Assembly: GCA_027622555.1 (NCBI GenBank)
Contig: JAQBYJ010000017.1
Location: 1-64,000 of the forward strand
Length of the DNA stretch: 64,000 nt
DNA from: Verrucomicrobiota bacterium
GTDB taxonomy: Bacteria; Verrucomicrobiota; Verrucomicrobiia; Opitutales; UBA2995
Direction: 5' to 3'
The notes beneath the pieces were generated by a model, which had not been told where the DNA came from, ran no database searches, and worked only from the letters and a program-made list of their open reading frames with translations. Numbering within the stretch: position 1 is the stretch's first letter; every line of letters begins with the position of its first letter. The translations under genes were made by a program, and so were the position numbers. Shown here in pieces: positions 9,588 through 52,410 of this stretch.

Positions 9588-11072
9588 ATGATCAATCGAA
9601 GAGACTTTATCAAAACAACGGCAGCAGCATCTTTAGCCGCTTCACTTCCCGCTGGATGCTCAAAAGCAGAAGCAAAATCGATGAAACCAAATATACTCTA
9701 TATATTCTCCGACCAATGGCGTCAATGCGACCACGGCTATGCCGGGAATCCAGATGTCATCACGCCCAACATTGATCGACTTGCTGGCCAAAGCATTAAC
9801 TTTACTCACGCAGTTTCCGGAATTCCGGTATGTTGTCCGCATCGCGCAACACTCATTACAGGAAAATACCCACTCACTCACGGTCTTTATTTAAATGACC
9901 TGTCCCTGGCGCCTGAACATCAAAGTATTGCCCATTGCCTGAACGATGCTGGTTATAAAACGGGTTGGATTGGGAAATGGCACATCGACGGACAAGGTCG
10001 CGAAGAATTTACTCCTCCGGAACGTCGCCAGGGATTCGAATATTGGAAAGCCCTGGAGTGTACTCATGACTACAATAATTCTCCCTACTTCGGGGATTCA
10101 TCTGAAAAGAAATATTGGAAGGCTTACGACGCCATCGAACAGACCAAAGACGCTCAGTCATATTTGGAGCGGCACGCACAGTCGAATTCTGATTCTCCTT
10201 TTGCGCTATTTCTTTCCTGGGGGCCACCTCATGCTCCCTATCACACCGCTCCAGAAAAATACCATAAGTTATACGAAGACAAAGAAATCATTTTACGAAA
10301 AAACGTGCCTCAAAGCGAAAGGGAAGTAGCGATGAAAGATTACAAAGGCTACTATGCTCACATGACGGCACTGGACGATTGCATGGGAGATCTCATGAAA
10401 ACACTCGAAGAAACAGGTTTGTCGGAAAACACCATTCTCGTATACACCTCAGACCATGGGGACATGTTACACTCGCGTGGAGCAATGAAGAAACAACAAC
10501 CTTGGGACGAATCGTTACGAATTCCGTTTCTGCTTCGATGGCCGGAGGCGTTGAAGAACAAAGCACGAGCTATTTCGATGCCCATCGACACACCCGACAT
10601 CATGCCAACCTTGCTTGGTCTTACTCAAACCGCAATTCCGGATGAGGTCGAAGGCATTAATAGATCATCGGTCATTTTGGGTACCGAAGAGCCGGATAGC
10701 GAACACGCAGCATTAATGACTTGCCCGTCACCGTTTGGTCAATGGACTCGCGATAAAGGTGGGCGAGAGTACCGGGGCGTACGAACCACACGCTATACCT
10801 ATTGCCGCTCACTGGATGGGCCCTGGTTGTTGTACGATAACGAATCGGATCCCTTTCAAATGGACAATCTGGTAAACAAACCTGAATTTGCTTCACTGCA
10901 GAAAACTCTCGATGATCGACTTAACCTACTTTTAAGGAAGACAAGGGATGAATTTTTGTCAGGTCCCGAATTGATTGCCCGATCCGGTTACATTGTCAAA
11001 GCATCAACCGAAACTGTTGATTATAATATTCCATTCAATCCGGCGAATATTACAAAAAGTCCCTTAGTGTAG
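9588..11072 (+). CDS. Tat-exported sulfatase (CCPHR type)
   Basis: Type I sulfatase of 494 residues. The N terminus has a twin-arginine motif (NRRDFIK, 3-9) followed by an Ala-rich segment ending in PAGC24, so it is probably Tat-exported and may be lipidated. The modification core is C82-C83-P84-H85-R86, keeping CxPxR with His in the usual Ser position. The first metal site is SDQWRQ (41-46), with Asp-Gln rather than Asp-Asp. The late YTSDHGDM segment supplies further ligands. It is third in the operon with the permease and the small membrane protein, and a DUF1592 cytochrome gene starts 55 bp after it, so it heads the first sulfatase/DUF1592/DUF1552 set of the window. Confidence 0.9.
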   Translation: MINRRDFIKTTAAASLAASLPAGCSKAEAKSMKPNILYIFSDQWRQCDHGYAGNPDVITPNIDRLAGQSINFTHAVSGIPVCCPHRATLITGKYPLTHGLYLNDLSLAPEHQSIAHCLNDAGYKTGWIGKWHIDGQGREEFTPPERRQGFEYWKALECTHDYNNSPYFGDSSEKKYWKAYDAIEQTKDAQSYLERHAQSNSDSPFALFLSWGPPHAPYHTAPEKYHKLYEDKEIILRKNVPQSEREVAMKDYKGYYAHMTALDDCMGDLMKTLEETGLSENTILVYTSDHGDMLHSRGAMKKQQPWDESLRIPFLLRWPEALKNKARAISMPIDTPDIMPTLLGLTQTAIPDEVEGINRSSVILGTEEPDSEHAALMTCPSPFGQWTRDKGGREYRGVRTTRYTYCRSLDGPWLLYDNESDPFQMDNLVNKPEFASLQKTLDDRLNLLLRKTRDEFLSGPELIARSGYIVKASTETVDYNIPFNPANITKSPLV

Positions 11073-11127
11073 ATTGAAAGAAAACTTTGCGATTCCTTCA
11101 TTCGCCAGTTTTGTTTCTAAATAACCC

Positions 11128-13113
11128 ATGAATATCTATCCCCTTAGATCGAAATTTTCAAAGCCTGTATTGGCAGTTCTCACAATCGCTTTCGCTGCCA
11201 ATAGTTTTGGTGTTGATTTCGATGCGGATATTCAACCCATTCTGCAAAAGTACTGCATCAACTGCCATGGTGGTGAAAAAGTTAAGGGCGAGGTAGACTT
11301 CACTCTGATTAACAACGAAGCGGATGTGACAGCACATTTTGAACTTTGGGAGACGGTCTCGGATAGATTGGCCTATGAAGAAATGCCTCCTGAAGAAGAG
11401 GACCTACGGCCAAGCCTTGAAGAAGCACAATTAGTTATTAACTGGTATGAAGATCGCTTTGTTAGATCCGTTGAAGCGCGTCCAGGTGAATTCAAGCCAC
11501 GACGATTATCTGCTCCCGAATACCGAAACACACTCCGAACACTGTTTGGATTCGATCTTGAGGTAGCCATAATAGCGGCGGAACAAACCAAGGCAGAAAG
11601 ATCCCTCGTAATTAAACTGCTTCCAACCGATCCACCTGGAGAAAGCGGATTTATCAATGACACAAATGCAGCCCGCTTGTCTTCCAATATTTGGGAGCAG
11701 TATGCCTACCTTGCTGATCGAGCACTTGAGGAATTGTTCTCTGATAACAGGCTTCCTCAACTTGAAAAGTTAATCGGGGAAAAATTGCCTGATGCCTTTA
11801 CTCCGACCCAATTGAGTCAAGCTCAAGCCAAGTCGATTCTGCGGACCTTTTCAACACTTGCCTACCGTCGCCCACTTCCAAGAAATGCGATTAACAAAAT
11901 CCTGAGCACGCTTAAAGGCCTTGAAGGTCAGGCTCTCGTTGATGCTACCAAAACGGAAATGAAGGTGCTTTTAGTCTCTCCTCAGTTTCTTTATCGTGGG
12001 CATCTGCTGGAAAGCAAGGTTGGCAAACAACAATTGGTCGATAAATATGAACTGGCTGAACGTCTATCTTACTTCTTGTGGGAAGATATGCCGGATGAAG
12101 AACTGATCAAAGTAGCAAACAAAGGTCGCTTGGATGATCCCGATGAAATGACCATGCAGATCGATCGAATGTTAGCCTCTCCGAAGGCACGAAGTCTTGC
12201 CGGAAGTTTTGGCGGCCAATGGCTCGATCTTGCAGATATTGATCAAGCCGCCGAAGATGTCACCGAACGTGAAGCACTGCGCAGCCAGCCACTGGATTTT
12301 CTCAATTATCTCTTTACTGAAGATCGACCTGTCATGGAGCTCATTGACTCGGAGATTGTGTTTACCAATTACATCACAGCGTCCTTCTACCCCAAAGACA
12401 GCGAACAATTGAAGAAGTACGTTAAGTTCAAGGGAATAGAACGGGAATTGGTTCCCAACCAACGTATCACTCTCGAGCACACAGAAAGTCGCGGCGGCAT
12501 TCTCACGATGCCTGGAATCCTTGCTATGAATCGAGGTCCTATATTGCGCGGCACCTGGATGTTGAGGCGAATTATGGGAGAACGTCTCGGAGAACCTCCT
12601 GCCGATGTTCCCGCAATCAAGTCCGCCATGCCCGATGAAACACTTTCGTTTCGTGAACGTTTTGAACAGCATAGAAGTGATCCGACCTGCGCTCGTTGCC
12701 ATGATCGCATCGACCCCTTCGGCTTTGCTTTGCAGGCCTATGACGACAGTGGCGCATTTAAACTGGATCCCAATTATAAAGCACCACGCAGGATATCGGA
12801 ACATGAAGACTCGCTGGAAGTGATCGATACGTCCGGGCAATTACCAAGCGGCGAAGGTTTCGAAGATTTCGAAGGCCTTAAACAATTACTTCTTGGAGCC
12901 AAGCGCCAGGATATCATCCGGAATGTGGTCGAGCAAGTATTGGCATACGCTCTGTGCAGAAAACTCGAATCCTTCGATCGCCCTACAGTAACCACGATCA
13001 CTGAAAAGATTGACGAAACCAATGGTTCATGGCGTGATCTTTTCATCGAAGTAGCCTTAAGCCTACCATTTCAACAGACCTACATCTCCCCTAGCCCGAA
13101 GAACGAATCATGA
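11128..13113 (+). CDS. DUF1592-family di-haem cytochrome protein
   Basis: A 661-residue exported protein (signal about residues 1-29) with the PVC domain series: N-terminal cytochrome-like domain with C43-I-N-C46-H47, DUF1587 (about 120-190), DUF1595 (about 230-295), DUF1592 (about 305-435), DUF1588 with a second haem-c motif C521-A-R-C524-H525, and DUF1585 at the C terminus. Two CxxCH motifs imply two covalently bound haems, so an electron-transfer role in the periplasm is likely, although no reaction is known. Its stop codon overlaps the start of the DUF1552 gene by four bases (ATGA), indicating translational coupling and probably a functional pair. Confidence 0.9.
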   Translation: MNIYPLRSKFSKPVLAVLTIAFAANSFGVDFDADIQPILQKYCINCHGGEKVKGEVDFTLINNEADVTAHFELWETVSDRLAYEEMPPEEEDLRPSLEEAQLVINWYEDRFVRSVEARPGEFKPRRLSAPEYRNTLRTLFGFDLEVAIIAAEQTKAERSLVIKLLPTDPPGESGFINDTNAARLSSNIWEQYAYLADRALEELFSDNRLPQLEKLIGEKLPDAFTPTQLSQAQAKSILRTFSTLAYRRPLPRNAINKILSTLKGLEGQALVDATKTEMKVLLVSPQFLYRGHLLESKVGKQQLVDKYELAERLSYFLWEDMPDEELIKVANKGRLDDPDEMTMQIDRMLASPKARSLAGSFGGQWLDLADIDQAAEDVTEREALRSQPLDFLNYLFTEDRPVMELIDSEIVFTNYITASFYPKDSEQLKKYVKFKGIERELVPNQRITLEHTESRGGILTMPGILAMNRGPILRGTWMLRRIMGERLGEPPADVPAIKSAMPDETLSFRERFEQHRSDPTCARCHDRIDPFGFALQAYDDSGAFKLDPNYKAPRRISEHEDSLEVIDTSGQLPSGEGFEDFEGLKQLLLGAKRQDIIRNVVEQVLAYALCRKLESFDRPTVTTITEKIDETNGSWRDLFIEVALSLPFQQTYISPSPKNES

Positions 13114-14723
13114 CGAGAAACTGGAAAATTGACCGTCGAACCTTTTTAAGAGGATTGGCCGGCACTGTATTACCGCTACCCTTTCTCAACCTGATGGAAG
13201 CAAAGACGAGCCATATAATTGGTGGAGCTTCCAATCTGGATTCAGCACCATTGAGGTTCCTGACTCTTTTCAAGCCTAACGGGGTCCATCCACCATCCTG
13301 GAATATTAATGGAGGCAAAGAATTCGACTTTAGAATGTCACCTCTCATGGCACCATTTTCGAAACATAAGGACGACTTGCTCATACTCGACAATATGGGC
13401 GACTTTGGTTTTTCCTCCCACGCCAACTCCACACGTCGTTTCCTGTCTGGACACCATGAGAATAAAGATAGTGCTTCGGTAGATCAACTGATAGCGGATA
13501 AGATTGGTGGGGATACCGCTCATCGCTCCCTGGAGCTCACCACCGAAGGACTTTTTACCGGACAATTTGGCTGTAGCTACATTTCGTACGATAAGGACGG
13601 AGGAGCCATCCCGAGAGAAAGCGATCCTCAGTTGGTATTTGATCGATTGTTTAGGAATCCAATGAGTGATCCGAATCAGCGAGCTGCAATGACAAGTATC
13701 CTGGATCGCGTTAACAACGATGCGAAGACTCTGGCTCGAAAGGCTGGAAGTGAGGATCGACAAACTCTTGACGAATATCTCACCGTAGTTCGCGAAACCG
13801 AACGTCGTATCGAGAATCTGGATCAAGTAAAGAGCAACGCACATTTCGACTTCACAAACTTTCAACGTCCGGGAATGAGCTCCAATTTAAACGAGCAGGT
13901 CGAAACCATGATCGACATTATCGCTCTGGCTCTTTGGACAGACTCGACTCGCTGCATCACCTATATGCTCGGCAACAGTAACAGTCGGATGGTTTTCGAT
14001 TTCCTTGGCATTAAAGAACAGCACCACTACCTATCCCATTTCTTCCGTAATTTTAGCCGCACAAATCTGGAATCGCTTCTCAAGATCAGTCTTTGGCATA
14101 TGGAGAAATTTGATTACCTTTTGACCAAGTTAAAATCTTACAAGGATCAAAACGGAAGCTTGCTTGACAACAGCATTGTTCTGTTTGGATCCGGCATGGG
14201 TCATAGTGATAATCATACGGCACAACGGATCCCGATTATTTTGGCGGGTAATGGCAACGGACGCATAAAGACCGGCCGGTATATTCGTTATTCAAAGAAT
14301 CAGGAGCTTAGTAACCTTCATTTGACATTGCTAAAAATATTTGGAATCGAAACCGACTCGTTTTCAGCTTCAAGCTCACCATTACCGGGTCTCGACGGAG
14401 GTCGCTTTAATGAATTTCGCGAGCAACCATTCAATAGCTGGGTGAAGCATCAAGCCGGTGTAATTACTGCACAAGGCCGCCTCCGCATGTCAGACAATCT
14501 CGATGAGGCTCGCGTATTTTACATAGACATTGATGGCAAGGAACCCGTCCGTATTGAAATAGAATTCCGAGATTTCCATAATTTCAATCTCGCATACCAT
14601 GTGGGCACACCTATCACGCTAACCGGTAATGGAAGCACTGTCGGCGCACAACTGCTCATCACGAAAATCACCGACATAAAAAGCCTCTTTGGAAACAGTA
14701 AGCCTGGTACACAAAACGGTTGA
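13110..14723 (+). CDS. Tat-exported DUF1552 protein with C-terminal extension
   Basis: A DUF1552 protein of 537 residues with a twin-arginine signal (RRTFLRG, 9-15). DUF1552 is regularly encoded next to DUF1592 proteins in Planctomycetota and Verrucomicrobiota. Its fold has been related to alkaline-phosphatase-like proteins, but no activity is established. This copy is longer than its partner at 28267 (453 residues). The extra sequence is largely a C-terminal segment of about 85 residues that begins after the WVKHQAGV stretch and looks like a beta-rich add-on. The ATGA overlap with the upstream gene points to coordinated production of the two proteins. Confidence 0.88.
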   Translation: MTRNWKIDRRTFLRGLAGTVLPLPFLNLMEAKTSHIIGGASNLDSAPLRFLTLFKPNGVHPPSWNINGGKEFDFRMSPLMAPFSKHKDDLLILDNMGDFGFSSHANSTRRFLSGHHENKDSASVDQLIADKIGGDTAHRSLELTTEGLFTGQFGCSYISYDKDGGAIPRESDPQLVFDRLFRNPMSDPNQRAAMTSILDRVNNDAKTLARKAGSEDRQTLDEYLTVVRETERRIENLDQVKSNAHFDFTNFQRPGMSSNLNEQVETMIDIIALALWTDSTRCITYMLGNSNSRMVFDFLGIKEQHHYLSHFFRNFSRTNLESLLKISLWHMEKFDYLLTKLKSYKDQNGSLLDNSIVLFGSGMGHSDNHTAQRIPIILAGNGNGRIKTGRYIRYSKNQELSNLHLTLLKIFGIETDSFSASSSPLPGLDGGRFNEFREQPFNSWVKHQAGVITAQGRLRMSDNLDEARVFYIDIDGKEPVRIEIEFRDFHNFNLAYHVGTPITLTGNGSTVGAQLLITKITDIKSLFGNSKPGTQNG

Positions 14724-14748
14724 TTCTTAATGTCAGTCTCTTCCCTGA

Positions 14749-14883
14749 GGTGAAATCATTCCTGATTTCCATCAACAACAGCTCACTGCCTATGGGGAAG
14801 CCGTTGCGTTTTATGAAAGCCTGGGATTTCAACGCTCAGGTAAAACAGAACCTATGTGGATATACCATGGGGACGATCATTGA
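14749..14883 (+). pseudogene. Remnant of a GNAT acetyltransferase
   Basis: A 44-codon open frame without a start codon, bounded by a stop at 14746. It reads like the last part of a GNAT acetyltransferase, with AVAFYESLGFQRSG followed by EPMWIYHGDDH and a stop. The FYxxLGF motif is the classic last strand and helix of GNAT domains. The acetyl-CoA-binding region is missing, so this is a 5'-deleted relic between convergent genes. Confidence 0.6.
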
Positions 14884-14910
14884 GTAAGAAACAATTGATC
14901 CACTATGAAT

Positions 14911-16002
14911 TTATAGGTCCCGATAGGGTCGCAGTTTTTGCCAATCAAATTCAACTCCGATGCCGGGAGTGTCAGGAGCAACAGCAAGACCGTCTTTTTT
15001 CACAAGCGGTCGCTTGGTATACTCATCTATTGGAAAACTATGGTGCTCAACCCACCCGCCGTTTGATTGGGAGGCAACAAGGCTTACATGCAGTTCATGC
15101 ATACCATGGGAGCACACGGAAATTCCATAAACTCGCGACATTTGAGCGACCTTAAGCCAATTGGTTATTCCGCCGCAGTTGGATGCATCTGGTTGAATAA
15201 ATGAGAGTTTTGCCTTATCAAAGGCGTATCCGAATTCATGGAGGGTATGAAGATTCTCACCCATGGCCAAGGGAATCTTAACTGCGTCGGCAATTTTTCC
15301 ATACCCGGAATAATCGTCGGGTATGGTAGGCTCCTCGAACCAAAAAATATTATAGGGTTCCACTTCTTTGGCAAATTCAATGGCCTTGGTTACCGTCATG
15401 GAAAAATTGGCATCAATCATGAAAATGACGTCGTCACCAATCAATTTCCGGACTTCCTTTATACGTTCAATGTCCTCATCTGAATCAGATTTACCCACTT
15501 TAATTTTTACGGCATTAAATCCATCCGCCAAATGGTTCCGAACGCTATCCAAAAGCTTTGGAAGCGGGAAATCCAAATCAATTCCTCCTCGATAAACCTT
15601 ACAATAAGGGTTATCTCCCTGCAGGTACTGCCACAAAGGTTGACCTGCTTCTTTGCAACGAATATCCCAAAGAGCGATATCCAACGCAGAAATAGCAAAT
15701 GAGGCAATTCCACCACGACCTACATAGTGAATATACCATTCGCAGAATTCATTGATTGCCTCAACTTCGGTTCCTTCCTGCCCTTTCAGTGCCGGTGCCA
15801 AGTCAAAGTCCAACATCGCTTTGATAGCCTGTCCACCTCGACCTCCAGTGTAAGTATAACCGTTACCCACGCTACCGTCTTTCAAATAAACTGCTACAAC
15901 TACTAATTCAAAATGACTGTGCATCCCGTGTTGTGCATCATACAGCCGCTCGACTAACGGAATATTATAAAGCTTGGTCTCGATTCTAATTATCTCACTC
16001 AT
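14911..16002 (-). CDS. Enolase-superfamily sugar-acid dehydratase (mandelate racemase type)
   Basis: A 363-residue cytoplasmic enzyme of the mandelate racemase subgroup. The catalytic Lys pair is K166-I-K168, the metal ligands are D197 (MIDANF), E223 (FEEP) and E249 (MGEN), and the Asp-His dyad is D272 (QPDAS) with H299 (CSHGMHE). With these residues intact it should abstract the alpha proton of a sugar acid and dehydrate or epimerise it. The exact substrate cannot be deduced. It lies 20 bp downstream of a KduD-like dehydrogenase gene on the same strand, which fits a two-step sugar-acid pathway. Confidence 0.85.
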
Positions 16003-16022
16003 AAGTTAATCGTTGGCATTCA

Positions 16023-16793
16023 TTATCGTCCCATCCAGCCGCCATCCACCAGGAGAGTTGTTCCATGGACATAATTGGCTGCATCAGAAGCGAGAAACAC
16101 AACCGGTCCTTTAAAATCGTCCGGTTCGCCCCAACGACCAGCCGGAATCCTGGATAAAATTTGTTCGCTGCGGACGGGATCCTCCCTGAGGGCTTCCGTA
16201 TTTTTGGTAGCGATATATCCTGGAGCGATAGCATTAACATTAACACCCTTCCCTGCCCATTCGTTGGCGAATGCCATGGTCAATTGGCCGATTCCACCTT
16301 TGCTAGCTGCATAACCAGGCACTGTGATACCGCCTTGGAAGGTAAGTAATGAAGCCGTAAATATGACCTTGCCGCTCCCACGTTTCAGCATCTCTTTACC
16401 AAATTCACGGGTGAGTATGAACTGGGCATTCAAATTTACTTCGATCACTTGGTCCCAATATTCATCGGTATGCTCGGCAGCAGGCATACGCAGGATGGTC
16501 CCGGCATTATTAATTAAAATATCGATGCAAGGGTGCTCAGATTTAACAGCGTCAATAAAATGATACAAGGCCGCTCTATCGGAAAAATCACAATCGTAAC
16601 CTGAAAATTGTCCTCCCAAAGATTTAACCGCAATCTCAAGTTCGGAATCTTTAAGTGGCATGTGAGCTGCTACGCCGATGATGTTTGCCCCGGCATCAGC
16701 CAAGGCAATTCCCATCGCTTGACCAATACCTCGACTACAGCCTGTGACCAGGGCCGTTTTACCTGAGAGATTAAATGATTCCAACGTATTCAT
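16023..16793 (-). CDS. SDR oxidoreductase, KduD-like (2-deoxy-D-gluconate 3-dehydrogenase type)
   Basis: Short-chain dehydrogenase of 256 residues from the chosen start (MNTLESF). It has the Rossmann motif TGCSRGIG (17-24), NNAG (95-98), catalytic Ser148, and Y161/K165 in YAASK. The segment FNLSGKTALVTG and the ending TTLLVDGGWMGR resemble KduD-type enzymes, which interconvert keto-deoxy uronates. An upstream ATG at 16820 would add nine residues, but family members normally start close to FxLxGK, so I prefer 16793. Neither start has a good Shine-Dalgarno sequence. The gene is in line with the downstream dehydratase and probably shares its transcript. Confidence 0.85.
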   Translation of the reverse strand: MNTLESFNLSGKTALVTGCSRGIGQAMGIALADAGANIIGVAAHMPLKDSELEIAVKSLGGQFSGYDCDFSDRAALYHFIDAVKSEHPCIDILINNAGTILRMPAAEHTDEYWDQVIEVNLNAQFILTREFGKEMLKRGSGKVIFTASLLTFQGGITVPGYAASKGGIGQLTMAFANEWAGKGVNVNAIAPGYIATKNTEALREDPVRSEQILSRIPAGRWGEPDDFKGPVVFLASDAANYVHGTTLLVDGGWMGR

Positions 16794-16880
16794 AGTTCGG
16801 ATAAACCAAGTTTGTAACATTCATAATTCGAAAGAGTTGAGAGTTTTGGCTGGAATCGAATTTCCATGGTAAGGGATGCA

Positions 16881-18734
16881 TTAGCTCTTTGTTAGATATA
16901 CATAGTAGGCTGACCTTGACTCATTACCATCATCAATCAACCAGGATTGTATTTTTTGTTCACCGCCTGAAAGATAGACACTGAAACGGGCTTCTTCATC
17001 GGTTGGGTAAACCGAAACCGTTTGATCGTAGTCTCCTACTTTTAGCCGGACCGCTTTGACGGGAATAGCCAAGGTTGGTGTGTTAATTATTTTGCTCGAA
17101 TGATTGTGCAACTCCGCAACGTAGGGTCCGAGCTCCACCGTTCCGCCTATAGGAGCGTCGACTTCCTTCGGCCATCTCCGGACAGAAATGTCATAGCTGC
17201 CACTTTCCACTACATCAATTGCCCAAAACCCGTTTGCCTTCATTCCTGTTCGAACGTGTTGTTGACTGTAGGGTACGGCATCTCCATGCCAGTTCTGTGA
17301 AGAGAAAGTGTAGCATTTCTGTTTTGAATCATCGATGACGAAGGGCACATATTCATGGGAACGTTTGGCAATATCCTTCCACCACGTTTCGTAGGTTTCT
17401 TTTAGCTTTTTAACAACCTTGGGATTAACAGCGGCCACATCTGATCTCTGACCTGAATCAATCGACAGGTCATAAAGCTCTTCTCCCACGAGTCTCCATT
17501 GATCAGTCATCACAGAATAATCCTTATTCTTGATTAATAATCCTTCGCCAACAAAGTCGCCAAACCGACCTTGGTGATGAACGACGATGCTTCTGTCTTC
17601 CCAGAGATCAGGATCGCCCCGAAGCAAAGGAGTAAGATCAACGCCATCGAATTGTACTTTGCCGGGAACCTTTAAATTACACAACTCAACCAATGTTGGA
17701 AGCACATCGATGTGCGCGGTCAAATGGGGCACATCATTGCCTTGGATCAGTTCACCTTTAGGCCAATGAAAAAAACCAGCCGCCCGGTGACCGCCTTCGT
17801 AGGCTGAAGTTTTCATTCCACGCATCCCGGCATTGTAGCCTGTTTCGACAAACCCGTTTGGTATCTCGGTTAGTTCTGCTCCCGCAGCACTGCCGTTATC
17901 CGTCATGAAAATGATAAGGGTGTTTTCAGCAATTTCCATTTCCTCCAGGCGACTTCGCAGACGACCCAAATTTTCATCAATGATTTTTATCATCCCATAA
18001 AAACGGGCTCTTCGTTCGGGGATTCCAGCATCCAAAAAGGGTTGAATGAATTCTATCGGTGCGTGAAGAGGACCATGCGGAGCGTTGGTCGCCAGGTAGA
18101 CAAAGAACGGCTCATTCTGGTTCTTCTCTATCCAATCACCCGCCTCACGAAACCAAACATCGGTGCAATAACCGTCCGTTTTTTCCGGCTCGCCATTGCG
18201 CAAGTAGGTATCATCGTAATAGTCGTTGTTCCAAAAATCTGGAGTTTCACCCACCACTCCACCTCCGTGAATAAGCGATTCCTCGAACCCTCGATCCTGT
18301 GGCCGGAAGGGATAGTTATCGCCCAAATGCCATTTGCCAAACATTGCGGTTTTATACCCGCTATTATTAAAAACCTCGGCCATGGTCATTTCGTCTTTTC
18401 GCAGATGATTACGTCCGCCGTAGGTGAGCCATACCCCTACCCGACTTGAATAGCGGCCTGTCGCCAAGGCTGCCCTTGAGGGCGAGCAGGTAGGATCAAC
18501 GTGAAAATTGGTGAGTCGGACACTATCTTTGTGTAAAGCATCGAGGTTGGGCGTATTTAAGTAGGGGTTACCATGGGCAGAAATATCTCCATAGCCTTGA
18601 TCATCCGTTATGATCACAATCACATTGGTATGAACCTGGTTAAAGCCAAACAGAGGTGACTTTCCTTTTTGGGCGGGACAGCCGAAGGCCATCAAAACGA
18701 AAATCAAAGTTATTGGGTAGAGGAGGAATCTCAT
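16881..18734 (-). CDS. Two-domain sulfatase (CSPSR type)
   Basis: A 617-residue sulfatase with a hydrophobic export signal (about residues 1-18, possibly lipidated at Cys19). The metal site is TDDQGYGD (43-50) and the formylglycine core is C83-S-P-S-R87. After the arylsulfatase domain (to about residue 470) comes a beta-rich C-terminal domain of about 140 residues, probably a carbohydrate-binding accessory domain, including a WPKEVDAPIGG stretch. The frame remains open upstream to 18944, but that part runs into a repeat and lacks coding character, so I start at the ATG at 18734. The N-terminal HLRKDEMTMAEVFNNSGYKT region is typical of arylsulfatase A-like enzymes. Confidence 0.88.
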   Translation of the reverse strand: MRFLLYPITLIFVLMAFGCPAQKGKSPLFGFNQVHTNVIVIITDDQGYGDISAHGNPYLNTPNLDALHKDSVRLTNFHVDPTCSPSRAALATGRYSSRVGVWLTYGGRNHLRKDEMTMAEVFNNSGYKTAMFGKWHLGDNYPFRPQDRGFEESLIHGGGVVGETPDFWNNDYYDDTYLRNGEPEKTDGYCTDVWFREAGDWIEKNQNEPFFVYLATNAPHGPLHAPIEFIQPFLDAGIPERRARFYGMIKIIDENLGRLRSRLEEMEIAENTLIIFMTDNGSAAGAELTEIPNGFVETGYNAGMRGMKTSAYEGGHRAAGFFHWPKGELIQGNDVPHLTAHIDVLPTLVELCNLKVPGKVQFDGVDLTPLLRGDPDLWEDRSIVVHHQGRFGDFVGEGLLIKNKDYSVMTDQWRLVGEELYDLSIDSGQRSDVAAVNPKVVKKLKETYETWWKDIAKRSHEYVPFVIDDSKQKCYTFSSQNWHGDAVPYSQQHVRTGMKANGFWAIDVVESGSYDISVRRWPKEVDAPIGGTVELGPYVAELHNHSSKIINTPTLAIPVKAVRLKVGDYDQTVSVYPTDEEARFSVYLSGGEQKIQSWLIDDGNESRSAYYVYLTKS

Positions 18735-18928
18735 GAACAAATTTAAAAATAAAGGACATCTGACCCCATCTTCAAGCCGGATTAGAGTCTTTAATGAACA
18801 AACAAGCGTCCTGCTAATCTCAAACCAAATGAAACTCCCAATTGCAAGCATCGGGGGATCTGAAATACAAGAACAAGCTCTTTTTTCTTTTGCTCGCAAG
18901 AATCCAGCAGACATCGTTGGTATTCGAT

Positions 18929-18988
18929 TCGCGACCAAGGTCACTCCTACAGCTACTTTCGCATGTCAAAATGTAGGAGCCAGCTTGT
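18929..18988. repeat. REP-like repeat, degenerate pair of arms
   Basis: A minus-oriented arm (18929-18952: TTCGCGACCAAGG then CTCCTACAG) and a plus-oriented arm starting TGTAGGAGCCAGCTTG at 18972. They form a back-to-back pair of the family seen at 2667 and 50413. Confidence 0.7.
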
Positions 18989-19334: not shown

Positions 19335-20606
19335 CTAGCCTAGCGTTTTGACTTCCGGCAACATGCCTTCTTCGTTCAACGGCAACGGACGCGGTTCGAC
19401 GATTATTTCGAGGTCGTCCCGTTCCCGAGCTTCATCCAAATAAGCAACCGAACATTCCAGCTCGGAGACGTGGAGTGTATTTTGAATCCACATCAGCTTG
19501 GCATCACAAGGCTCGGTTAAGCCAATTAGTGGAAGGGCGGAGTTTAAGACTTCGCGGTCTGTGGGATAATGAATAGGAACCATGGCTCCAGAAGCTTCTC
19601 CACCCGTCAAGCAATTGATACGTGTGATATTCATGTCCACCTGATCAATAGCTCGTGTGAGAGAAAATTCCACAACGCCGATACCGCAACCATTGCCATG
19701 GGTTTCTTCCGTTAACCCACGAATTCCGATGAACCGAATATTTGGAAATTCATTTGGTCCAGCTCTGTGGTACCCATCTTTTCGACCAACTACGTTAGTA
19801 TCCAGTCCGCTTCCACTGATGTTTTTTCCGATTTCATCGACAAGCAGGAGGTCGCAACGATCAAAAGGTAAGCGCGGAAGCCAATTTCTAGCTAATACAA
19901 GCAGCTCTTTCTCACGTTCTTCAAATTCTTCAGGAGCGACTGCTGCTATCTTTGCTGTTTCATCGTAAGCGTTTTCAACGATACCTACTCCAGCAACCAC
20001 ATTACACCTGGAAAGAACTTCCTTTCCAACGCTTCTGACAATTTGACCGAACTCAAAATCTTTGATCGCACGGTGATAAATCCTGGCACCATTGTGCTTA
20101 CCATAACCGATAAGCATCATCTTCATCAGACCGCTCTGAATATCTCCAAAGAAGTTGGTGTGGGGTTTAACTCGACCACACACAACGACATGGTCCGCCT
20201 CAGATGCATATTTATCAAAATGAACCGGAAATCCTTCGTCCGCCTGGCAGACAATGATTGTTTCCATGCTGGCTTTAATGGGGCAGCCACAAAATTCCTC
20301 AGTCACACCGTAGCCTTCGATAATACCGCGTTGCCCTTCAGAAGTTCCTCCTCCGTGACTTCCCATCGCAGGAACAATAAAGGGTTTGGCTCCCAGACCT
20401 TTAAAATGATCAACAATCGCTTTTATAACCAAATGAATATTGGCGATACCTCGACTGCCCGCGGAGATGGCCACCGTATGGCCTGGCCGGACCTTGTCTC
20501 TTAATTTCAACATTGAAAGTTGGGCATCAACTTCAGCGGGGATGTCAGTAATCACCGTGCGTTCAAACGATTGGCGGACTCGGAAAATATCGGGATAATC
20601 GGGCAT
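19335..20606 (-). CDS. LarA-like (DUF2088) protein
   Basis: A 423-residue protein with the LarA N-terminal-type domain. It shows GHTVAISAGSRGI (42-54), MGSHGGGTSEGQ (81-92) and GRVKPHTNFFGD (144-155), where lactate racemase has the Lys/His residues that hold its nickel-pincer cofactor. LarA-like proteins racemise or epimerise 2-hydroxy acids including sugar acids. Whether this one carries the cofactor is unknown, and no larB, larC or larE is in the window. It lies downstream of the sugar-acid and sulfatase genes on the same strand, so a role in hydroxy-acid catabolism is plausible. Confidence 0.75.
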   Translation of the reverse strand: MPDYPDIFRVRQSFERTVITDIPAEVDAQLSMLKLRDKVRPGHTVAISAGSRGIANIHLVIKAIVDHFKGLGAKPFIVPAMGSHGGGTSEGQRGIIEGYGVTEEFCGCPIKASMETIIVCQADEGFPVHFDKYASEADHVVVCGRVKPHTNFFGDIQSGLMKMMLIGYGKHNGARIYHRAIKDFEFGQIVRSVGKEVLSRCNVVAGVGIVENAYDETAKIAAVAPEEFEEREKELLVLARNWLPRLPFDRCDLLLVDEIGKNISGSGLDTNVVGRKDGYHRAGPNEFPNIRFIGIRGLTEETHGNGCGIGVVEFSLTRAIDQVDMNITRINCLTGGEASGAMVPIHYPTDREVLNSALPLIGLTEPCDAKLMWIQNTLHVSELECSVAYLDEARERDDLEIIVEPRPLPLNEEGMLPEVKTLG

Positions 20607-20922
20607 GATAAAAAAGAAGTTTTATTGTATTTGGCTATATTGCAAGCGATACGCGTTATCGTTGAATAATAGTTGTAAGAATCCCTCTGGCACCATGAAC
20701 CTTTTAGGTTTATGCCATCCCCTTGATCCAGTTTATAATTAGTTCGAGACCTTCATCGTGCACCTGGCTGTGGCCTTTGCTTGGCATCGCAAATGGTTGC
20801 TGAAACCTTCCCGATAAATTGGATTATGAAGTTGTTATAAAACGCGAATGAATTTTAGGTAATGCTGTTTCACCACAGTTAGACAAAGCACAACCGCACA
20901 ACTGTCCTTGTGTTGATTAATT
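20607..20922. other. Intergenic region between divergent genes
   Basis: A 316-bp region between the LarA-like gene and the methyltransferase gene. It holds a probable cytochrome relic (20710-20823, minus strand). No promoter motif stands out. Confidence 0.4.
20710..20823 (-). pseudogene. Possible relic of a c-type cytochrome domain
   Basis: A 37-codon minus-strand frame bounded upstream by a stop at 20824. It contains FAMPSKGHSQVHDEGLELII and ends NWIKGMA followed by a stop. The ending resembles the last helix of class I cytochrome c domains (ELIINWIKG). The haem motif and the rest of the gene are absent. Confidence 0.35.
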
Positions 20923-21708: not shown

Positions 21709-21728
21709 AGTCGAAAACAAATGCAGGA

Positions 21729-21775
21729 CCGACTTTAGTCGGGATTCCTGGATTCACGAATCGCGGTTTCCATCC
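21729..21775. repeat. Short palindrome (CCGACTTTAGTCGG) with flanking REP-like sequence
   Basis: A 14-bp imperfect palindrome at 21729-21742, followed by GGATTCCTGGATTCACGAATCGCGG, which has the AATCGCGG end seen in other GTAGGAGC-type copies. It lies between convergent genes and may serve as a terminator. Confidence 0.35.
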
Positions 21776-21923
21776 GTCGCTTTCAGCTTCCGCCGCCGCC
21801 CAAGGGCGAGACACGTTGGAGGACAGAAGAAACCCTACACTTTGTGCTTAAGACCGGAAGGACGCGAAGAAATTTACGTCCCACATGGACTCATTATTTT
21901 TTCAGTCGTTCAAATTTAAGAGG

Positions 21924-22988: not shown

Positions 22989-23244
22989 TTACTCCGGACT
23001 ATAGATAGGTAGGTAGCCGAAAACCAAGATCAACATTACGATATTGTATCAGTCATTTCTTTTAAAAGAGAACGTTGCCGTTTCTGAGAAATAACCGGTC
23101 CGGAGATTGGATAAGGCAAAAAAATTGTTGCGTAAGTGAAAAACGGACAAGCAGCCTGGAATTACTTTAAAAGGATAGAAAATTGTTTTGATGATCCAAA
23201 CCATATCCTTGCCTTGGTTCCGATTTTAAAATTAGGTTCAAGCA

Positions 23245-24798
23245 ATGTTGAAATCGTACCGTTATTTTTGTTTTTTAGTTAGGAGGCCATTCTTCCCTTT
23301 GGCTAACATTGCCCTGATTTATTTGTTTATTTCCTGCGAAGGTTTTGGGCAAACCCCACAGCCGAATATCCTGTTCATCTTTACGGATGACCAAAGTTCT
23401 AGAACAGTAAGCAGCTACCCTGAAGCTTACGACTGGGCTCATACACCCAACCTCGACCGTCTGGCTCAATCGGGAATCCGATTTGATCAGGCTTACACAA
23501 GTTCGTGGTGCATGCCGGCCCGGGCAACCATGCTCACCGGCCTGCAACAGCACAACATCCCCAGCCTTCATCGAGTGGGCCCTTACCCGGGTGCAGAGTA
23601 TGATCCGAACGTCCTGAAATTCTGGCCCAAGGAGTTTCGGGAAAACGGGTATTCCACCGGTCATATCGGAAAGTGGCATGTCGGCACCGATACCGGTTAT
23701 GGTAGAGACTGGGATTTTCAGTACGTGTGGATTCGCCCAGAACCAACGGCCGGCAATGCAAGGGAATATTACGTAGATCAAAAAATAATTCTAAATGGCA
23801 AACCGATTGGCACCGTAGAAGCCTACGCCACTGACAATTACACCAACCGAGCTGTAGAATTCATCCACGGACAAAATCGCGACACGGAAAAACCATGGTA
23901 TTTGTGGTTGTGCTATACCGGTATTCACGGACCCTTTACCCCAGCAGACAGGCACTTGGAAGAATATCCGGGAGTAGAAATACCAACACCGGCAGATATT
24001 TATCCTCCCCGCGCCGGGAAGCCCGAGTATTCAGGCCAGTACGGCGTCTGGAAGGCGGATGAAAAGGGCACGGCCCGATCCTATGACAATGGAAAATTCG
24101 GCGGGACCCTTTATGACGCCACCAGGCAATACCACCAGGCGGCAATATCCGTGGATGAGGGGGTGGGTCGACTCATTGAAGCCCTAAAAGCCTCAGGACA
24201 ATATGACAACACTTTGGTCGTCTTTACCGCCGACCAGGGATTTGCGTGGGGACAACATGGCTTCCGACACAAGCGGGCTCCCTACTCTGCCAATATAAAA
24301 GTACCCTTCATTGTTTCGATGCCTGGAACCCTTCCTGATAATCAAGTTTGTAGCTCTCCCGTGGGCAGCATTGATCTGGTTCCTACTTTTTTCAAATTTG
24401 CCGGTCTCGATTTGCCATGGAAAATGGATGGAAGAGACATGACATCTTTGCTTCGCAATCCGGGCCAAGCCTGGGAAAGACCTGTATTTTTGACCTTTAC
24501 CCTGGAAGCGTTCCGGCCCGATTCGGGCATCATTCCCAAACCTTTACCTTATACAGGAAACAATGTTCCGTGGTATGGCTTTGTCATTCAGGACCGTTAC
24601 AAATTCATTCAAACCTTTGTGGAGAACGAGATTCCGGAACTCTATCATATCGACAACGATCCCGACGAACTGACCAACCTCGCCCTACTTCCCGAATACC
24701 GCGATACAGTGAAAAAACAGCATAAATTATTGGTGTCCGAACTGAAGCGTACGAATGCACGATTCGTGGATTCACTCCCATCCATGAGGGGTTACTAA
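23245..24798 (+). CDS. Sulfatase (CMPAR type)
   Basis: A 517-residue sulfatase with an N-terminal hydrophobic signal (about residues 16-36). The metal site is FTDDQSSR (46-53) and the modification core is C89-M90-P91-A92-R93, with Ala in the usual Ser position but CxPxR intact. A GKWHVG segment follows, and the late TADQGFAWGQHG segment has Asp-Gln where most sulfatases have Asp-His. It opens the second sulfatase/DUF1592/DUF1552 set: the DUF1592 gene starts about 140 bp downstream in the same direction. Confidence 0.88.
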   Translation: MLKSYRYFCFLVRRPFFPLANIALIYLFISCEGFGQTPQPNILFIFTDDQSSRTVSSYPEAYDWAHTPNLDRLAQSGIRFDQAYTSSWCMPARATMLTGLQQHNIPSLHRVGPYPGAEYDPNVLKFWPKEFRENGYSTGHIGKWHVGTDTGYGRDWDFQYVWIRPEPTAGNAREYYVDQKIILNGKPIGTVEAYATDNYTNRAVEFIHGQNRDTEKPWYLWLCYTGIHGPFTPADRHLEEYPGVEIPTPADIYPPRAGKPEYSGQYGVWKADEKGTARSYDNGKFGGTLYDATRQYHQAAISVDEGVGRLIEALKASGQYDNTLVVFTADQGFAWGQHGFRHKRAPYSANIKVPFIVSMPGTLPDNQVCSSPVGSIDLVPTFFKFAGLDLPWKMDGRDMTSLLRNPGQAWERPVFLTFTLEAFRPDSGIIPKPLPYTGNNVPWYGFVIQDRYKFIQTFVENEIPELYHIDNDPDELTNLALLPEYRDTVKKQHKLLVSELKRTNARFVDSLPSMRGY

Positions 24799-24871
24799 AA
24801 TTTAGAAAACAAGATCTTTAGTACCTAAACATCGGGTACTAAATGATAAATATATTAGGCCAGATACCCTG

Positions 24872-24897
24872 TTGACAGAATAGACGTGTTTTATAGT
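24872..24897 (+). promoter_or_regulatory. Possible sigma-70-like promoter before the DUF1592 gene
   Basis: TTGACA at 24872-24877 and TATAGT at 24892-24897, with a spacer of 14 bp, which is shorter than ideal. If used, transcription starts after the GTG at 24896, supporting the ATG at 24938 as the start of the next gene. Confidence 0.3.
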
Positions 24898-24937
24898 GTT
24901 AACTCCTGAACCCTCTCTATCAGCTACGCCCAAGCTT

Positions 24938-27900
24938 ATGGTTCGAAATTTAGTTCACAATTCCCCTGGAGCTATTAAAGCCTCCCGATACAAGTCCGCT
25001 TTGCCTTGCGGTCTTTTTCTGATAGTCACGTTTATTGTGCCTCATACAAGTTGGAGCGCTGAGCTCAAGATCGACACGGCAATTCCTATTGTTAAACAAT
25101 TTTGCTTTGATTGTCATAACGACAAAAAAACCAAGGGAGATATCAATTTCGAGACACTGACCAGGGACCTGGACATTCCCGGTGATTTTAAGAGCTGGGA
25201 ACTGGCGGCTGAGATGCTGGAGATGGTAGAGATGCCGCCAGATAATGAGGACCAACCAAGCGACACGCAACGACAGCAATTGGCGTCGTTCATTCGCAAG
25301 GAGATTGAGGACACCGTTCAAAAGAATGCCGGTGACCCTGGAGAAATAGTTTTGCGACGACTCACCAGTGCAGAGTACGCCTACACAATCAAGGATCTGA
25401 CAGGGCTCGAATTTGATTTTGAAAAATCCTTTATGGATGAAGCTGTAGGTGGAGAAGGATTCTCAAATGTGGGAGAAGTCCAGTTTATCCAGGATTCGAC
25501 GCTTGAACGTTACCTTGATGCAGCAAAGACGGTAGCGTCGCATGCGCTAATCGGTGCGGGTGCCTTAGATTTTTATACTGATCCCGGGGACACAGGACAG
25601 GAGCTTTCGGCGATAAATCGCATCAAAACTATTTATCGAGAAAATGGTTTCCGTACAGGAGCCGGAGAAGGAGCGAATGAATTTGGATTGGACCAATACG
25701 CCAAAGCTTTCTACGCGGCCTGGTATTACCAGCATCGTCATTCGCTTGGCCGGCCTTCTATTACACTGACCGAGTTGGCAAAGGAAGAATCCATTTCCCC
25801 CAAGTTTACAGAACACATCTGGAAGGTTCTTACACAGGCACACCCAAGTTTTCCTACCAGCGAAATAATCGACAAATGGAATGACCTCCCTATTCCAATT
25901 GAAAGTCTGACTCCTTCAGAATTCACGGTTCGCAATGCCTGTTCTAACTTGTATGAGGACCTCTTTGAATGGCAGAAAACCTTGGCAGCGAGTACCATAG
26001 ATGATGAAGAGTATGCCGTTTTGAGCGACGAAGCTTTCGAGGCAAACCAGTCACACCAGTTTCGGGTTCGCATGAACCGACACCCGACTGCCATTTACAC
26101 CGAGTTTGAGATTCTGGCAAAAGTAGCAGGCGGTAAAGATAGTTCAAAGCCAGCAGTCCACTGGAAACAACCGACCATTAGAATCCTTGAAACTGGAAGC
26201 ACCACTCCAACACTGGTACCGCTGCGAGAACTTGTTTCACAGGAAACCGCTGAATTAATCCAATTCGGGATAGGTGTGAACAGAGCCAAGATAGACGACA
26301 ATGACTTCGTAACTGACGATGCAACCAAGCTAATAATTCAGGTACAATTACCTAAAGAAAGGTCACGGGCGGAATTTCAAGTGGAAGCAATTTTGGATAC
26401 TGAAAACGGCGATGACGTCCTGGTTCGTTGTGAAATCACAGACGGATATAATGCAAATGAGACTATCGCTTCAACTGGTTCAGCATCCGCGCTATTAGCA
26501 GATCCAAATAGCCCCCAGATAGAGGAACTTAGAACCGGTATTCTGGCCTTTGCTCAAAACCTGCCGCAGGTTTCTCATCTCGAACCTACTCCATCAGATC
26601 GGGATCACATTCCGGAACCTTTTGATAACACTTACAATAAACCTGAGAGAAACTATTTTCACACGGCCATTAAGTACCAAAGGCAAGATTCGTTTCTAAC
26701 GAATATTATCCTCGATTCAGCAAGCGCAAGAAAGCTCGATGAAGCTTGGGCGGACCTCCTCACTTCGTTCGATTATCATGACACCATTTTTAGGTTCGCT
26801 AACGAAAAGTACGATTTGAAAAGCCCTGTCAAATCACTCGCCGATCTTGATCAAGGTTGGATCAATGAGCTTCCTTCCATTCCCCATGAACACGTCGAAA
26901 ATGTATTCCAAGATTTTAATCAAAAACAAACCGAACTTCAGCAAGCTCAGGCAGGGCAAATCAACGACGTACTGCTGTTTGCCGAGCAGGCATGGCGGAG
27001 GCCGCTAAGGAAGCAGGACAAGGATCGTCTCACTTCGTTTTACTCGGAGCTTATACAAGTCAAGGAACAGAGCCACCAGGAGGCTATCCGGACTTTGATA
27101 ACACGAATTCTTGTTGCACCCGAGTTTCTTTACCGCATCGAAAGTCCGATTAAGAGCCACGCTATGGTTCCTCTTTCCAATTGGGAACTGGCGAGTCGGC
27201 TTAGCTATTTCCTTTGGTCTTCCAAACCAGACGAAGAACTACTAAAATTGGCCGCATCTGGTGAACTGAGTGATCCTGAGATTTTGGCTGAACAAACCAA
27301 GCGCATGTTGAGAGATCCAAAGTCGCGAAGATTTGTGACAGAATTCTTCGGACAGTGGTTTGGGTTTTATCGCTTTGATGGTTATAACGGAATCGATACA
27401 GAACTTTTCAATTATTTCACCGACGAGCTGAAAGCTGCCATGTACCATGAGGCGATCTCATTTTTCGAATACGTCGTAACGCAAGACCGACCAGTCGATG
27501 AAATAGTCTACGCTGACTACACTTTTCTAAATCCGGAACTCGCACAACATTACGGAATACCGTGGGACTCGGTTGATTCTCAATCCGATACACTGGTGCG
27601 TGTCGACGGAACCCGAAAGTTCAATCGAGGCGGATTGCTTAATTTAGGTGCAGTTTTAACAGTAACGTCAGCTCCCCTTCGAACCAGTGCGGTCAAACGT
27701 GGAGATTGGATTCTCCGCCGAGTATTAGGAACTCCAACTCCCCCTCCTCCCGCTGATGCTGGTTCTATTCCGAATGAGGACGTTTTGCCAGACGGGAAAA
27801 CGGTTCGAGAACGCCTGGAGGCCCACAGACGGGAATCTTCCTGTGTCAATTGCCATACTCGGATAGATCCCTTGGGTTTCGCTTTGGAAAATTTCAATCC

Positions 27901-28264
27901 TATTGGTCAATGGCGTGATACTTACAGGGATGGTGGAAACATCGATACCATGGGGATCCTCAACGACGGAACTTTGATAAGCGGACTGGATGATCTGTAT
28001 CACTATTTTGAACAGGAGAAAGCAACTGTTCGCCGAAACCTCTGCAGGAAGTTGCTTGGCTATGCTCTGGGTCGAAGCGAAATATTGGCGGACCGGATAT
28101 TGATCGACAAAATGATGAATAGCCTCGAAGCTGATAACCGGTTTTCAAACCTGATTACACAAATTGTGACAAGTACCCAATTCCGTCACCAAAGAAGTCA
28201 AAGAAACGAATCTGCCGCTATTGAGAAGAAAACGTCCTCTAAAGAGGAAGACACCGAAATTTAA
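24938..28264 (+). CDS. Long DUF1592-family di-haem cytochrome protein
   Basis: A 1108-residue member of the same family as the protein at 11128. The frame can also start at a GTG at 24896, adding 14 residues. Counted from that GTG: a membrane signal (about 36-55), haem motif C70-F-D-C73-H74, DUF1587 (about 150-215), a large insert (about 220-680) with helical and beta-sandwich parts, DUF1595 (about 690-745), DUF1592 (about 750-890), DUF1588 with haem motif C983-V-N-C986-H987, and DUF1585 at the end. The 661-residue paralogue lacks the insert. It is probably a periplasmic electron-transfer protein whose reaction is unknown. The DUF1552 gene follows after two bases. Confidence 0.88.
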
Positions 28265-28266
28265 TC

Positions 28267-29628
28267 ATGCCTCAGTTCCTGAAATCCAAACGCTTTTCAC
28301 GACGCACATTTTTGCGAGGAGCAGGAATGACTTTAGCGCTACCCTGGTTGGAATCTGTTCCCACTTATGCTCTGGAAACAGGAAAACGAATATCGGGTGG
28401 ATTAGCAAATAAAGCCCCTGTCCGATTCGGCTGCTTATTTTTCTCCAATGGAGTTGAGCCCGCACATTGGTGGGCAAACAAGAACGAATCAAAAATGGAA
28501 ATCGGTCCCGGGTTAAAGCCGATGGAACCATTTACCGAACATTTTTCATTCATCCGCGGTCTTTTTAACCAAAAGGCGGTTGAACATGACAGCGCGCATT
28601 TGGGTCGCACACCAAATCTTCTTTCAGGTGCCTGGGTTAGTAAGGATCAAAGCGAAATACGTGTTGGTCAAACGATGGATCAATTAATGGCAAAGGAAAT
28701 TGGTCACCAATCACCCATCCCCAGCTTGATTCTCGGAATCGAACCTACTGAGCTCCGTCTCGAAGACGGACTATCCATGCTCTACGGTTCCAACATTTCC
28801 TGGAGTACTGACACAAAGCCTGCCATGAAGGAAATTTATCCATCCCGGGTATTTGACTTACTGGTCGGCAACGGCAGCGATCGTGGTTTGGACCAGAGTA
28901 TCCTGGATGAAGTTTTAGAAGATGCCAGTTATTTGAAAAGCCAGGTTGCCTACAGCGACAGGCATAAACTGACGGACTATCTCGACTCCATTCGAGACAT
29001 CGAGACACGCATAAACTTCGCAGCGAAAGATCATCAACTTGAGGGTTGGCACCCTTCCATCACTGAACCTAACTTGACCCGGCCATCGGAAACGCTTCCT
29101 CAGCACATCCCGAATCATATGAGGCTCATGATGGACCTGATCGTATTGGCCTTTCAAATGAACAAGACGCGCATCGCAACCTGCATGCTCAACAACGATC
29201 TTTCACAAATGAATTTCGGTTTCCTCGAGCACGTCAAAGGTAGCCTTCACCTGGACCTGACTCACAACGGACGCGATCCAGAACTCGAGGCCATGTATTT
29301 GAAAACCAATCAATTTCACACTGAACAATTTGCATACCTGCTTGGTCGCATGAAGGACATCGACGAAGGTGGCCAATCCTTGCTGGACAATTCCATGCTG
29401 ATGTTCTGCTCAAATTTCTTTGATGGAGACCTGCACCAGGCAGATCATATGCCCATCCTCCTCGCAGGAAAAGGCGGCGGGTCACTTCAACCTGGACAAG
29501 TTCTGGACTTCAAAGAAGAAGACGCAGACAACCGAAGAGCCTGTAGTTTGTACCTGTCTCTCATGGATCGAATGGGAGTCAATGTTCCTCGGTTTGGAGA
29601 TACCAATCGTCGCCTGGCAAACATTTGA
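28267..29628 (+). CDS. Tat-exported DUF1552 protein
   Basis: A 453-residue DUF1552 protein with a twin-arginine signal ([10 protein letters not shown], 11-20) followed by a hydrophobic stretch. It starts two bases after the DUF1592 stop codon, the same arrangement as the overlapping pair at 11128-14723. Conserved stretches shared with that paralogue include RTFLRG near the start, a [13 protein letters not shown]-like first strand, a [13 protein letters not shown]-like helix, and [14 protein letters not shown] near the end. No catalytic residues are established for the family. It is probably the functional partner of the preceding cytochrome. Confidence 0.9.
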
Positions 29629-52344: not shown

Positions 52345-52410
52345 ATCAAAATCCTTCTTTCCCTCTTACTTTTTCTCGTTCTTTAAAATTCAAAACTGAC
52401 ATTCAACATT

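Follow-up and report, generated by a model that had tools for sequence, protein, structure and literature searches.

A widespread pair of di-haem DUF1592 and DUF1552 proteins, with a predicted sulfatase-like fold in DUF1552 and a lineage-limited link to neighbouring sulfatases

Genes for a sulfatase, a di-haem DUF1592 protein and a DUF1552 protein follow one another twice in a 64,000-nucleotide stretch (the window) of contig JAQBYJ010000017.1 from a Verrucomicrobiota bacterium (assembly GCA_027622555.1; here G000). The original prediction described this order on the plus strand and suggested that the three proteins could form one system. We found all six open reading frames, and a profile scan of the window proteins matched their Pfam families above the cut-offs (Table 1). 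We refer to S1, D1592a and D1552a as set a and to S2, D1592b and D1552b as set b. Our comparison shows that the DUF1592-DUF1552 pair is the real unit, a widespread two-part module, and that the sulfatase is a frequent neighbour in this genus, not a fixed third part of the set.

Table 1. Genes of the two sets, followed by other features of the window.
Feature	Coordinates	Strand	Remarks
S1, exported sulfatase (PF00884)	9588..11072	+	Tat signal (Pfam TAT_signal match); CCPHR formylglycine motif
D1592a, di-haem exported protein, 661 amino acids	11128..13113	+	PSCyt1-PSD3-PSD5-PSD4-PSCyt3-PSD2; CxxCH at 43 and 521
D1552a, Tat-type DUF1552	13110..14723	+	C-terminal extension; His104 at nucleophile position by spacing; predicted alkaline-phosphatase/sulfatase fold
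S2, exported sulfatase (PF00884)	23245..24798	+	CMPAR motif; export signal by eye
D1592b, long di-haem protein	24938..28264 (or from GTG 24896)	+	Insert of ~470 amino acids between PSD3 and PSD5; CxxCH at 70 and 983, counted from 24896
D1552b, Tat-type DUF1552	28267..29628	+	Degenerate HxxSHH region (HLDLTHN), without His306
Permease-like membrane protein, 469 amino acids	7996..9405	+	Upstream of S1; weak NCBIfam cytosine permease match
Enolase-superfamily, sugar-acid dehydratase-like	14911..16002	-	Also next to set a in G001 and G005
Short-chain dehydrogenase/reductase (SDR)	16023..16820	-	KduD models come closest but are not matched above their cut-offs; also next to set a in G001 and G005
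Sulfatase	16881..18944	-	G001 has a 63% identical sulfatase near its set a
LarA-like nickel-pincer isomerase	19335-20606	-	Group 22 in NCBIfam, E 2e-146
Small lipoprotein-like protein, 142 amino acids	29799..30227	+	After set b; LLFSC after hydrophobic start, by eye
Three consecutive sulfatases	48970-54072	-	

The anatomy of the two sets is largely as predicted. Each DUF1592 protein has two CxxCH motifs, those of PSCyt1 and PSCyt3, and the genes of each pair are tightly coupled, through an ATGA overlap at 13110-13113 in set a and a 2-bp gap at 28265-28266 in set b. Both sulfatases combine PF00884 with the C-x-P-x-R motif of formylglycine sulfatases and appear to be exported. Both DUF1552 proteins carry an RRTFLRG motif close to the N-terminus, which we assigned by eye to twin-arginine translocation (Tat); the Pfam TAT_signal model matched S1 and neither window DUF1552 protein. 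PF07586 (DUF1552) was matched over nearly the full model by both DUF1552 proteins (E 5.7e-71 and 1.2e-73). PSCyt1, PSD3, PSD5, PSD4, PSCyt3 and PSD2 exceeded the Pfam cut-offs in both DUF1592 proteins. These are the domains of planctomycete cytochromes (PF07635, PF07626, PF07637, PF07631, PF07627 and PF07624), and DUF1552 stands beside both window proteins. Compared with those cytochromes D1592a is short and D1592b long, and D1552a has its C-terminal extension. The insert of D1592b gave no confident Pfam match, its single match below the cut-off not being credible. This protein has 1122 amino acids if counted from the GTG, but the ATG is the more likely start because its paralogue on L035 starts with MVRNSVHK, a sequence that corresponds to the window protein from residue 15. 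D1552a and D1552b are 32% identical, so the sets are no close copies of each other. No terminator-like site was found between S2 and D1592b, only a minus-strand promoter-like site, and the scan of the set a region for operon signals was uninformative.

How general is the pair? We compared 80 diverse loci from several phyla; a single pattern gave 588 relatives of D1592a, of which the best 80 were taken. Genes were called as longest open reading frames with priority for profile matches, so some neighbours are spurious frames. At these loci a codirectional DUF1552 gene is the immediate neighbour of 69 of the 87 DUF1592 genes, a count in which cut contigs and dropped overlapping frames are scored as misses. 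The two families also diverge together. Within single genomes, the distance matrices of DUF1592 and DUF1552 paralogues correlate with r 0.92 in G000 (14 pairs), 0.86 in a complete genome of the same genus (G001; 23 pairs) and 0.92 in a Bryobacterales genome (G082; 18 pairs), and each value exceeds all 5000 shuffles. Since these correlations were measured among paralogues of one genome, the species tree cannot explain them, although shared duplication of linked genes also contributes. Among the usable diverse pairs, 67 of 68 have DUF1592 first, as do 16 of 18 pairs of G082; gene order varies in the window's genus (DUF1592 first in 8 of 14 pairs in G000 and 10 of 23 in G001). Such co-variation is what obligate partners, probably subunits, would show.

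The family is patchy and, in some genomes, abundant. Of 59 genomes taken from the phylum, 3 have DUF1552, one of them G000, and so do 10 of 18 relatives. The 6.0-Mb draft genome G000 has 18 DUF1552 and 19 PSD2 matches, G001 has 25 DUF1552 and 33 DUF1501 matches, and Planctomycetia and Bryobacterales genomes have 31 and 21 DUF1552 matches. Two DUF1552 copies, L037:142-1458 and L040:1-843, are 96% identical and both lie at contig ends, possibly reflecting a recent duplication or an assembly break.

Is the sulfatase a third member of this module? Sulfatase adjacency can be judged only against a control because the window's genome is very rich in sulfatases, with at least 151 matches (150 of 335 candidates scored) and 14 in 400 kb of control regions. 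We therefore compared the distance from each DUF1592/DUF1552 block to the nearest sulfatase with that of 3.8-kb pseudo-sets in control stretches of the same genome. The blocks were those around DUF1552 matches in three genomes, G000, G001 and G082, all of them sulfatase-rich. Control stretches were chosen by position, a few being moved or cut to avoid set regions. In G000, a sulfatase lies within 300 bp of 7 of 16 sets, against a control mean of 6.8% (P 0.0001); two of the 18 blocks were left out at this distance as a contig end was nearer than 300 bp. The window's two sets had drawn attention to the locus, and without them the count is 5 of 14. A set near a contig end was counted only when a sulfatase was seen; the one on L040, with its DUF1552 at the contig end, thus scores as a match, and without it the count is 6 of 15. 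In G001, 8 of 25 sets have a sulfatase within 300 bp against 5.3% (P below 0.0001), which supersedes an earlier count of 7 of 25 (overlapping pseudo-sets, Fisher's test) through a freer overlap rule and region-level sampling. The two genomes are not independent, as four sets keep orthologous adjacent sulfatases in both (74-82% identical). The excess extends to 1 kb (8 of 16 sets against 11.7% in G000, P 0.0004; 9 of 24 against 17.9% in G001, P 0.02) and 3 kb (10 of 14 against 25.7%; 13 of 23 against 27.8%). In G082 the figures are 2 of 21 against 2.2% within 300 bp (P 0.08), 2 of 21 against 7.9% within 1 kb (P 0.51) and 7 of 20 against 28.1% within 3 kb (P 0.32).

The sister cytochrome system shows no such excess in G001. 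As a specificity control, we took blocks of the DUF1501/PSCyt2 system in G001 (20 stretches for 33 DUF1501 matches), and a sulfatase lies within 300 bp of 1 of 21 of them (control 5.3%), within 1 kb of 1 of 21 (17.9%) and within 3 kb of 7 of 19 (27.8%, P 0.26). At the diverse loci, 2 of 142 immediate neighbours are sulfatases, a count without abundance control; one more at L044 escaped the count, since its overlapping DUF1552 frame had been lost in gene calling. Nine of the 80 loci have a sulfatase anywhere, and the four of their genomes for which sulfatase content was measured have between 47 and at least 124 matches each. The link to sulfatases is therefore real within the genus; in G082, the only distant genome with a control, it is weak or absent. 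This corrects the idea of a general trio: the excess beyond sulfatase abundance, on which that idea depended, was present in G000 and G001 but not clearly so in G082.

Moreover, neither trio of the window is a conserved unit. Relatives keep the set a pair, with D1592a 49-72% and D1552a 69-85% identical to the window's proteins. An orthologue of S1 was found beside none of six such loci (L154 and L043-L047; best sulfatase identity 30%), nor in L253-L256, of which L256 spans only 3.4 kb and L254 is cut off within D1552a by the contig end. In L044 and L047, sulfatases that are not S1 orthologues come to within 200 bp of set a. The 16.7 kb of L035, which carry a paralogue of set b (DUF1552 83% and DUF1592 57% identical), contain no sulfatase, and in G001 the set b orthologue (L151) lies 3,976 bp from the nearest one. 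Adjacent sulfatases within one genome belong to different subfamilies, with no pair more than 40% identical over more than 300 amino acids, and their divergence does not track that of DUF1552 (r -0.04 and -0.14 for 7 loci each), a comparison near saturation and of low power. One of the four sets with orthologous sulfatases in G000 and G001, a tightly spaced trio of DUF1592-like, DUF1552-like and sulfatase genes, does recur in three genomes of the genus (L041:7295-12234, L145:3051-8203 and L257:28-5013, the last in G004).

The predicted structure of DUF1552 offers another connection to sulfatases. An AlphaFold 2 model of D1552a built with 69 sequences has a predicted local distance difference test score (pLDDT) of 87 and a predicted template-modelling score (pTM) of 0.89. 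Foldseek aligned it to sulfatases with E from 4.6e-6 (template-modelling scores 0.29-0.37 among the first 20), and VIA-align placed 259 residues on a sulfatase with Z 17.4 and a root-mean-square deviation of 3.6, phosphodiesterases being tied. By its predicted fold, DUF1552 thus belongs to the alkaline-phosphatase/sulfatase superfamily. In the part of the literature covered, we found no published proposal of a sulfatase fold for DUF1552.

The putative active site differs from that of sulfatases. H104, H310 and H369 (D1552a numbering) are the only invariant histidines of 69 DUF1552 proteins, and a core of H104, D125, Q126, H310 and H369 is present in all 69, both window proteins included; H306 is present in 68. 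His104 is the first residue of a predicted helix following a strand. The spacing x8-[STAE]-G that follows the formylglycine cysteine in 18 of 21 sulfatases follows the histidine in 44 of 69 DUF1552 and 16 of 18 DUF1501 proteins. Judged by this spacing, the secondary structure and homology to DUF1501, the invariant histidine appears to occupy the formylglycine position. We looked for a formylglycine, Ser or Thr nucleophile and found His at the spacing-matched position in 69 of 69. The acidic metal ligands of sulfatases lie at S1 positions 42, 43 and 289, where 20, 19 and 21 of the 21 sequences have Asp (S1 is an exception with Gln43), but no conserved counterpart was seen in the DUF1552 sequences. 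The literal motif HxxSHH does not define the family because its last His is found in only 49 of 69 members; it is absent from both window proteins, D1552a having HYLSHF.

A second family shares this arrangement. The profiles of DUF1552 and DUF1501 align over 362 columns (probability 98, E 1.5e-13), placing H104 on H148 and H369 on H402, with H346 one residue off H310; H148, H346 and H402 are the only invariant histidines in 18 DUF1501 proteins. By profile, DUF1501 is itself related to sulfatases (probability 91, E 1.3e-6, 86 columns). We presume that DUF1501 is already grouped with alkaline phosphatases in Pfam or InterPro, so that part is possibly not new. DUF1501 accompanies PSCyt2/PSD1 (DUF1549/DUF1553) proteins, which share with DUF1592 haem proteins only a related C-terminal domain (80 columns, probability 96) and otherwise differ in architecture; the 21 blocks of that system in G001 also differ from DUF1592/DUF1552 sets in lacking a sulfatase excess. 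The two systems look like branches of one design, a haem protein with a sulfatase-fold partner. As side observations, the haem proteins of the L041 and L145 trios also match the PSCyt2 profile, and this trio type may bridge the two cytochrome systems. In G001, the DUF1501 model (PF07394) matches weakly (E about 1e-4) inside frames of 428-596 amino acids, and one of these coincides in part with a sulfatase match (3623790-3624161), in line with a kinship of DUF1501 and sulfatases.

The partner of DUF1552 has conserved residues that go with both haem motifs. In D1592a, Met86 is present in 73 of 73 ungapped DUF1592 sequences and is the likely sixth ligand of haem 1 (CxxCH 43-47), which would make its ligation His/Met. 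His515, six residues before the CxxCH of haem 2 (521-525), is invariant in 74 of 74. The haem 1 region resembles cytochrome c chains weakly (best E 0.0018). For the confident AlphaFold 2 model of D1592a (pLDDT 89, pTM 0.91), Foldseek matches had E of 0.088 or more and VIA-align reached at most Z 4.3, which is not proof of a new fold.

What could such a pair do? We propose, at a probability of roughly 45%, that the exported DUF1592 and DUF1552 proteins form one haem oxidoreductase with a non-sulfatase subunit of sulfatase fold. It would probably oxidise glycan-derived or other substrates, and neighbouring sulfatases would share its locus but not its complex. The substrate would sit on DUF1552, possibly together with a metal; the invariant histidines, at the site corresponding to that of sulfatases, would probably bind metal or substrate. 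Haem 2, which has His515 close by, would take the electrons as the candidate haem for entry or catalysis, and haem 1 would be the electron-transfer haem handing them on to the respiratory chain. Tat export would suit a DUF1552 protein folded around a cofactor. In the genus, sulfatases next to the sets may remove sulfate from the substrates of the pair, and sulfatase and pair may draw on one common sulfated substrate.

A redox role fits the two haems, and the oxidation of a sugar, suggested by the original prediction, finds contextual support at the set a locus only. There, the sugar-acid dehydratase and KduD-like SDR genes are found in the window, in G001 and in G005; G001 adds a GntP permease, and an equal-length unannotated protein stands in its place in G005. 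We infer a sugar or glycan substrate because of these genes, the sulfatase link in the genus and carbohydrate-binding domains reported in related proteins. The available part of a lignocellulose study lists in a table a protein combining DUF1592 with CBM2, with a best match in Cellvibrio (PMC6004670). For freshwater Verrucomicrobia, He 2017 (PMC5615132) reports that PSCyt2 and PSCyt3 genes usually adjoin genes of two uncharacterised families, that some of the PSCyt proteins carry carbohydrate-binding modules, and that sulfatase genes often lie near such cytochrome genes in part of the lake metagenome-assembled genomes. Therefore, the proximity of sulfatases to such cytochrome genes is already published; that text gives no known function for the cytochromes or their partners.

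Several points weigh against our proposal. D1552b is the sole DUF1552 protein among the 69 without His306, and 25 of the 69 do not show the x8-[STAE]-G spacing. The match to the nucleophile site lacks a residue-level overlay and depends on spacing, secondary structure and DUF1501 homology. When DUF1552 was aligned to sulfatases with hhalign, only the C-terminal part matched (probability 77, E 2e-5), and a profile search of DUF1552 against the PDB gave nothing meaningful. Beyond haem 1, neither Foldseek nor VIA-align found a clear solved relative of DUF1592. As for the substrate, no recognised carbohydrate-binding domain was found in the 14 DUF1592 proteins of G000 that were scanned. A sugar-acid pathway as the general context of the pair was considered and rejected, as such enzymes are not enriched beside pairs: among 528 pair-region and 620 control genes, there are 4 (two in this window) and 1 dehydratases, 1 and 1 GntP permeases, and 2 and 4 SDRs. 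In some proteobacteria, DUF1501 stands beside DUF1800, with a Tat signal, according to the available part of another report (PMC5122149). The neighbours of the pair in other phyla are mixed. Finally, DUF1800 presumably lacks haem, and if so the sulfatase-fold partner may not need one.

Could DUF1552 have no catalytic role? It might be a pseudoenzyme that binds carbohydrate or sulfate and feeds a catalytic DUF1592 haem of peroxidase- or dehydrogenase-like type. The predicted fold is kept while the sulfatase catalytic residues are replaced, pairing with DUF1592 is strict, and the invariant His515 lies near haem 2, all as such a division of labor would have it. We nonetheless consider it unlikely, since three histidines strictly invariant in 69 proteins are more than binding would usually need. 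DUF1552 might instead be a hydrolase, whether phosphatase, sulfatase or phosphodiesterase, that uses a His nucleophile or a metal-hydroxide and is sensed or regulated by the haem protein. The predicted superfamily and the invariant histidine, which spacing places at the nucleophile position, are compatible with hydrolysis, but we saw no conserved equivalent of the sulfatases' acidic metal ligands, and this explanation strikes us as improbable. Just as improbable is a dedicated three-part system in which sulfatase, DUF1592 and DUF1552 desulfate and then oxidise one sulfated sugar: its support within the genus (7 of 16 and 8 of 25 sets against 5-7% of controls, the four orthologous neighbours and the tight trios) does not extend to the two window trios, which are unconserved, to co-variation with DUF1552, for which power was low, or to loci outside the genus, where sulfatases are rare.

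The haem oxidoreductase proposal has a broader form, which we regard as doubtful: DUF1552 and DUF1501 would together be a new class of the alkaline-phosphatase superfamily, its hydrolytic centre rebuilt as a three-histidine metal site, and each would make a redox enzyme with its own haem protein. Oxidoreductase chemistry would then take place on a sulfatase scaffold, with tens of paralogous copies in a genome. If the partner is a histidine-rebuilt sulfatase fold, homologous in both systems and diverging together with its haem protein, a long-standing list of domains without known function can be read as a single enzyme hypothesis open to test.

A permease had been noted with one of the sets, and the protein upstream of S1 is indeed a membrane protein; its assignment as a permease is less secure, as it has no Pfam match at E 0.01 and no relative beside set a in the loci compared. 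What had been described as a mini membrane protein, located after set b, looks instead like a small lipoprotein, with no Pfam match and no relative among the loci compared. Our survey of neighbours scanned 117 of 130 diverse-locus, 118 of 157 genus and 118 of 499 control genes and covers the first 25 families listed, so small enrichments could escape it. Among the 117 diverse-locus neighbours (L043-L122), which have no control of their own, we counted ankyrin repeats 6 times, PQQ_2 5 times and the PF01011 PQQ propeller 3 times; PQQ occurs in 3 of 118 control genes of the genus. A tRNA-Ala(CGC) called by ARAGORN at 32304-32400 on the minus strand lies inside a CoA-transferase gene of the opposite strand (31651-32886) and is probably spurious. 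In total, the window encodes seven sulfatases.

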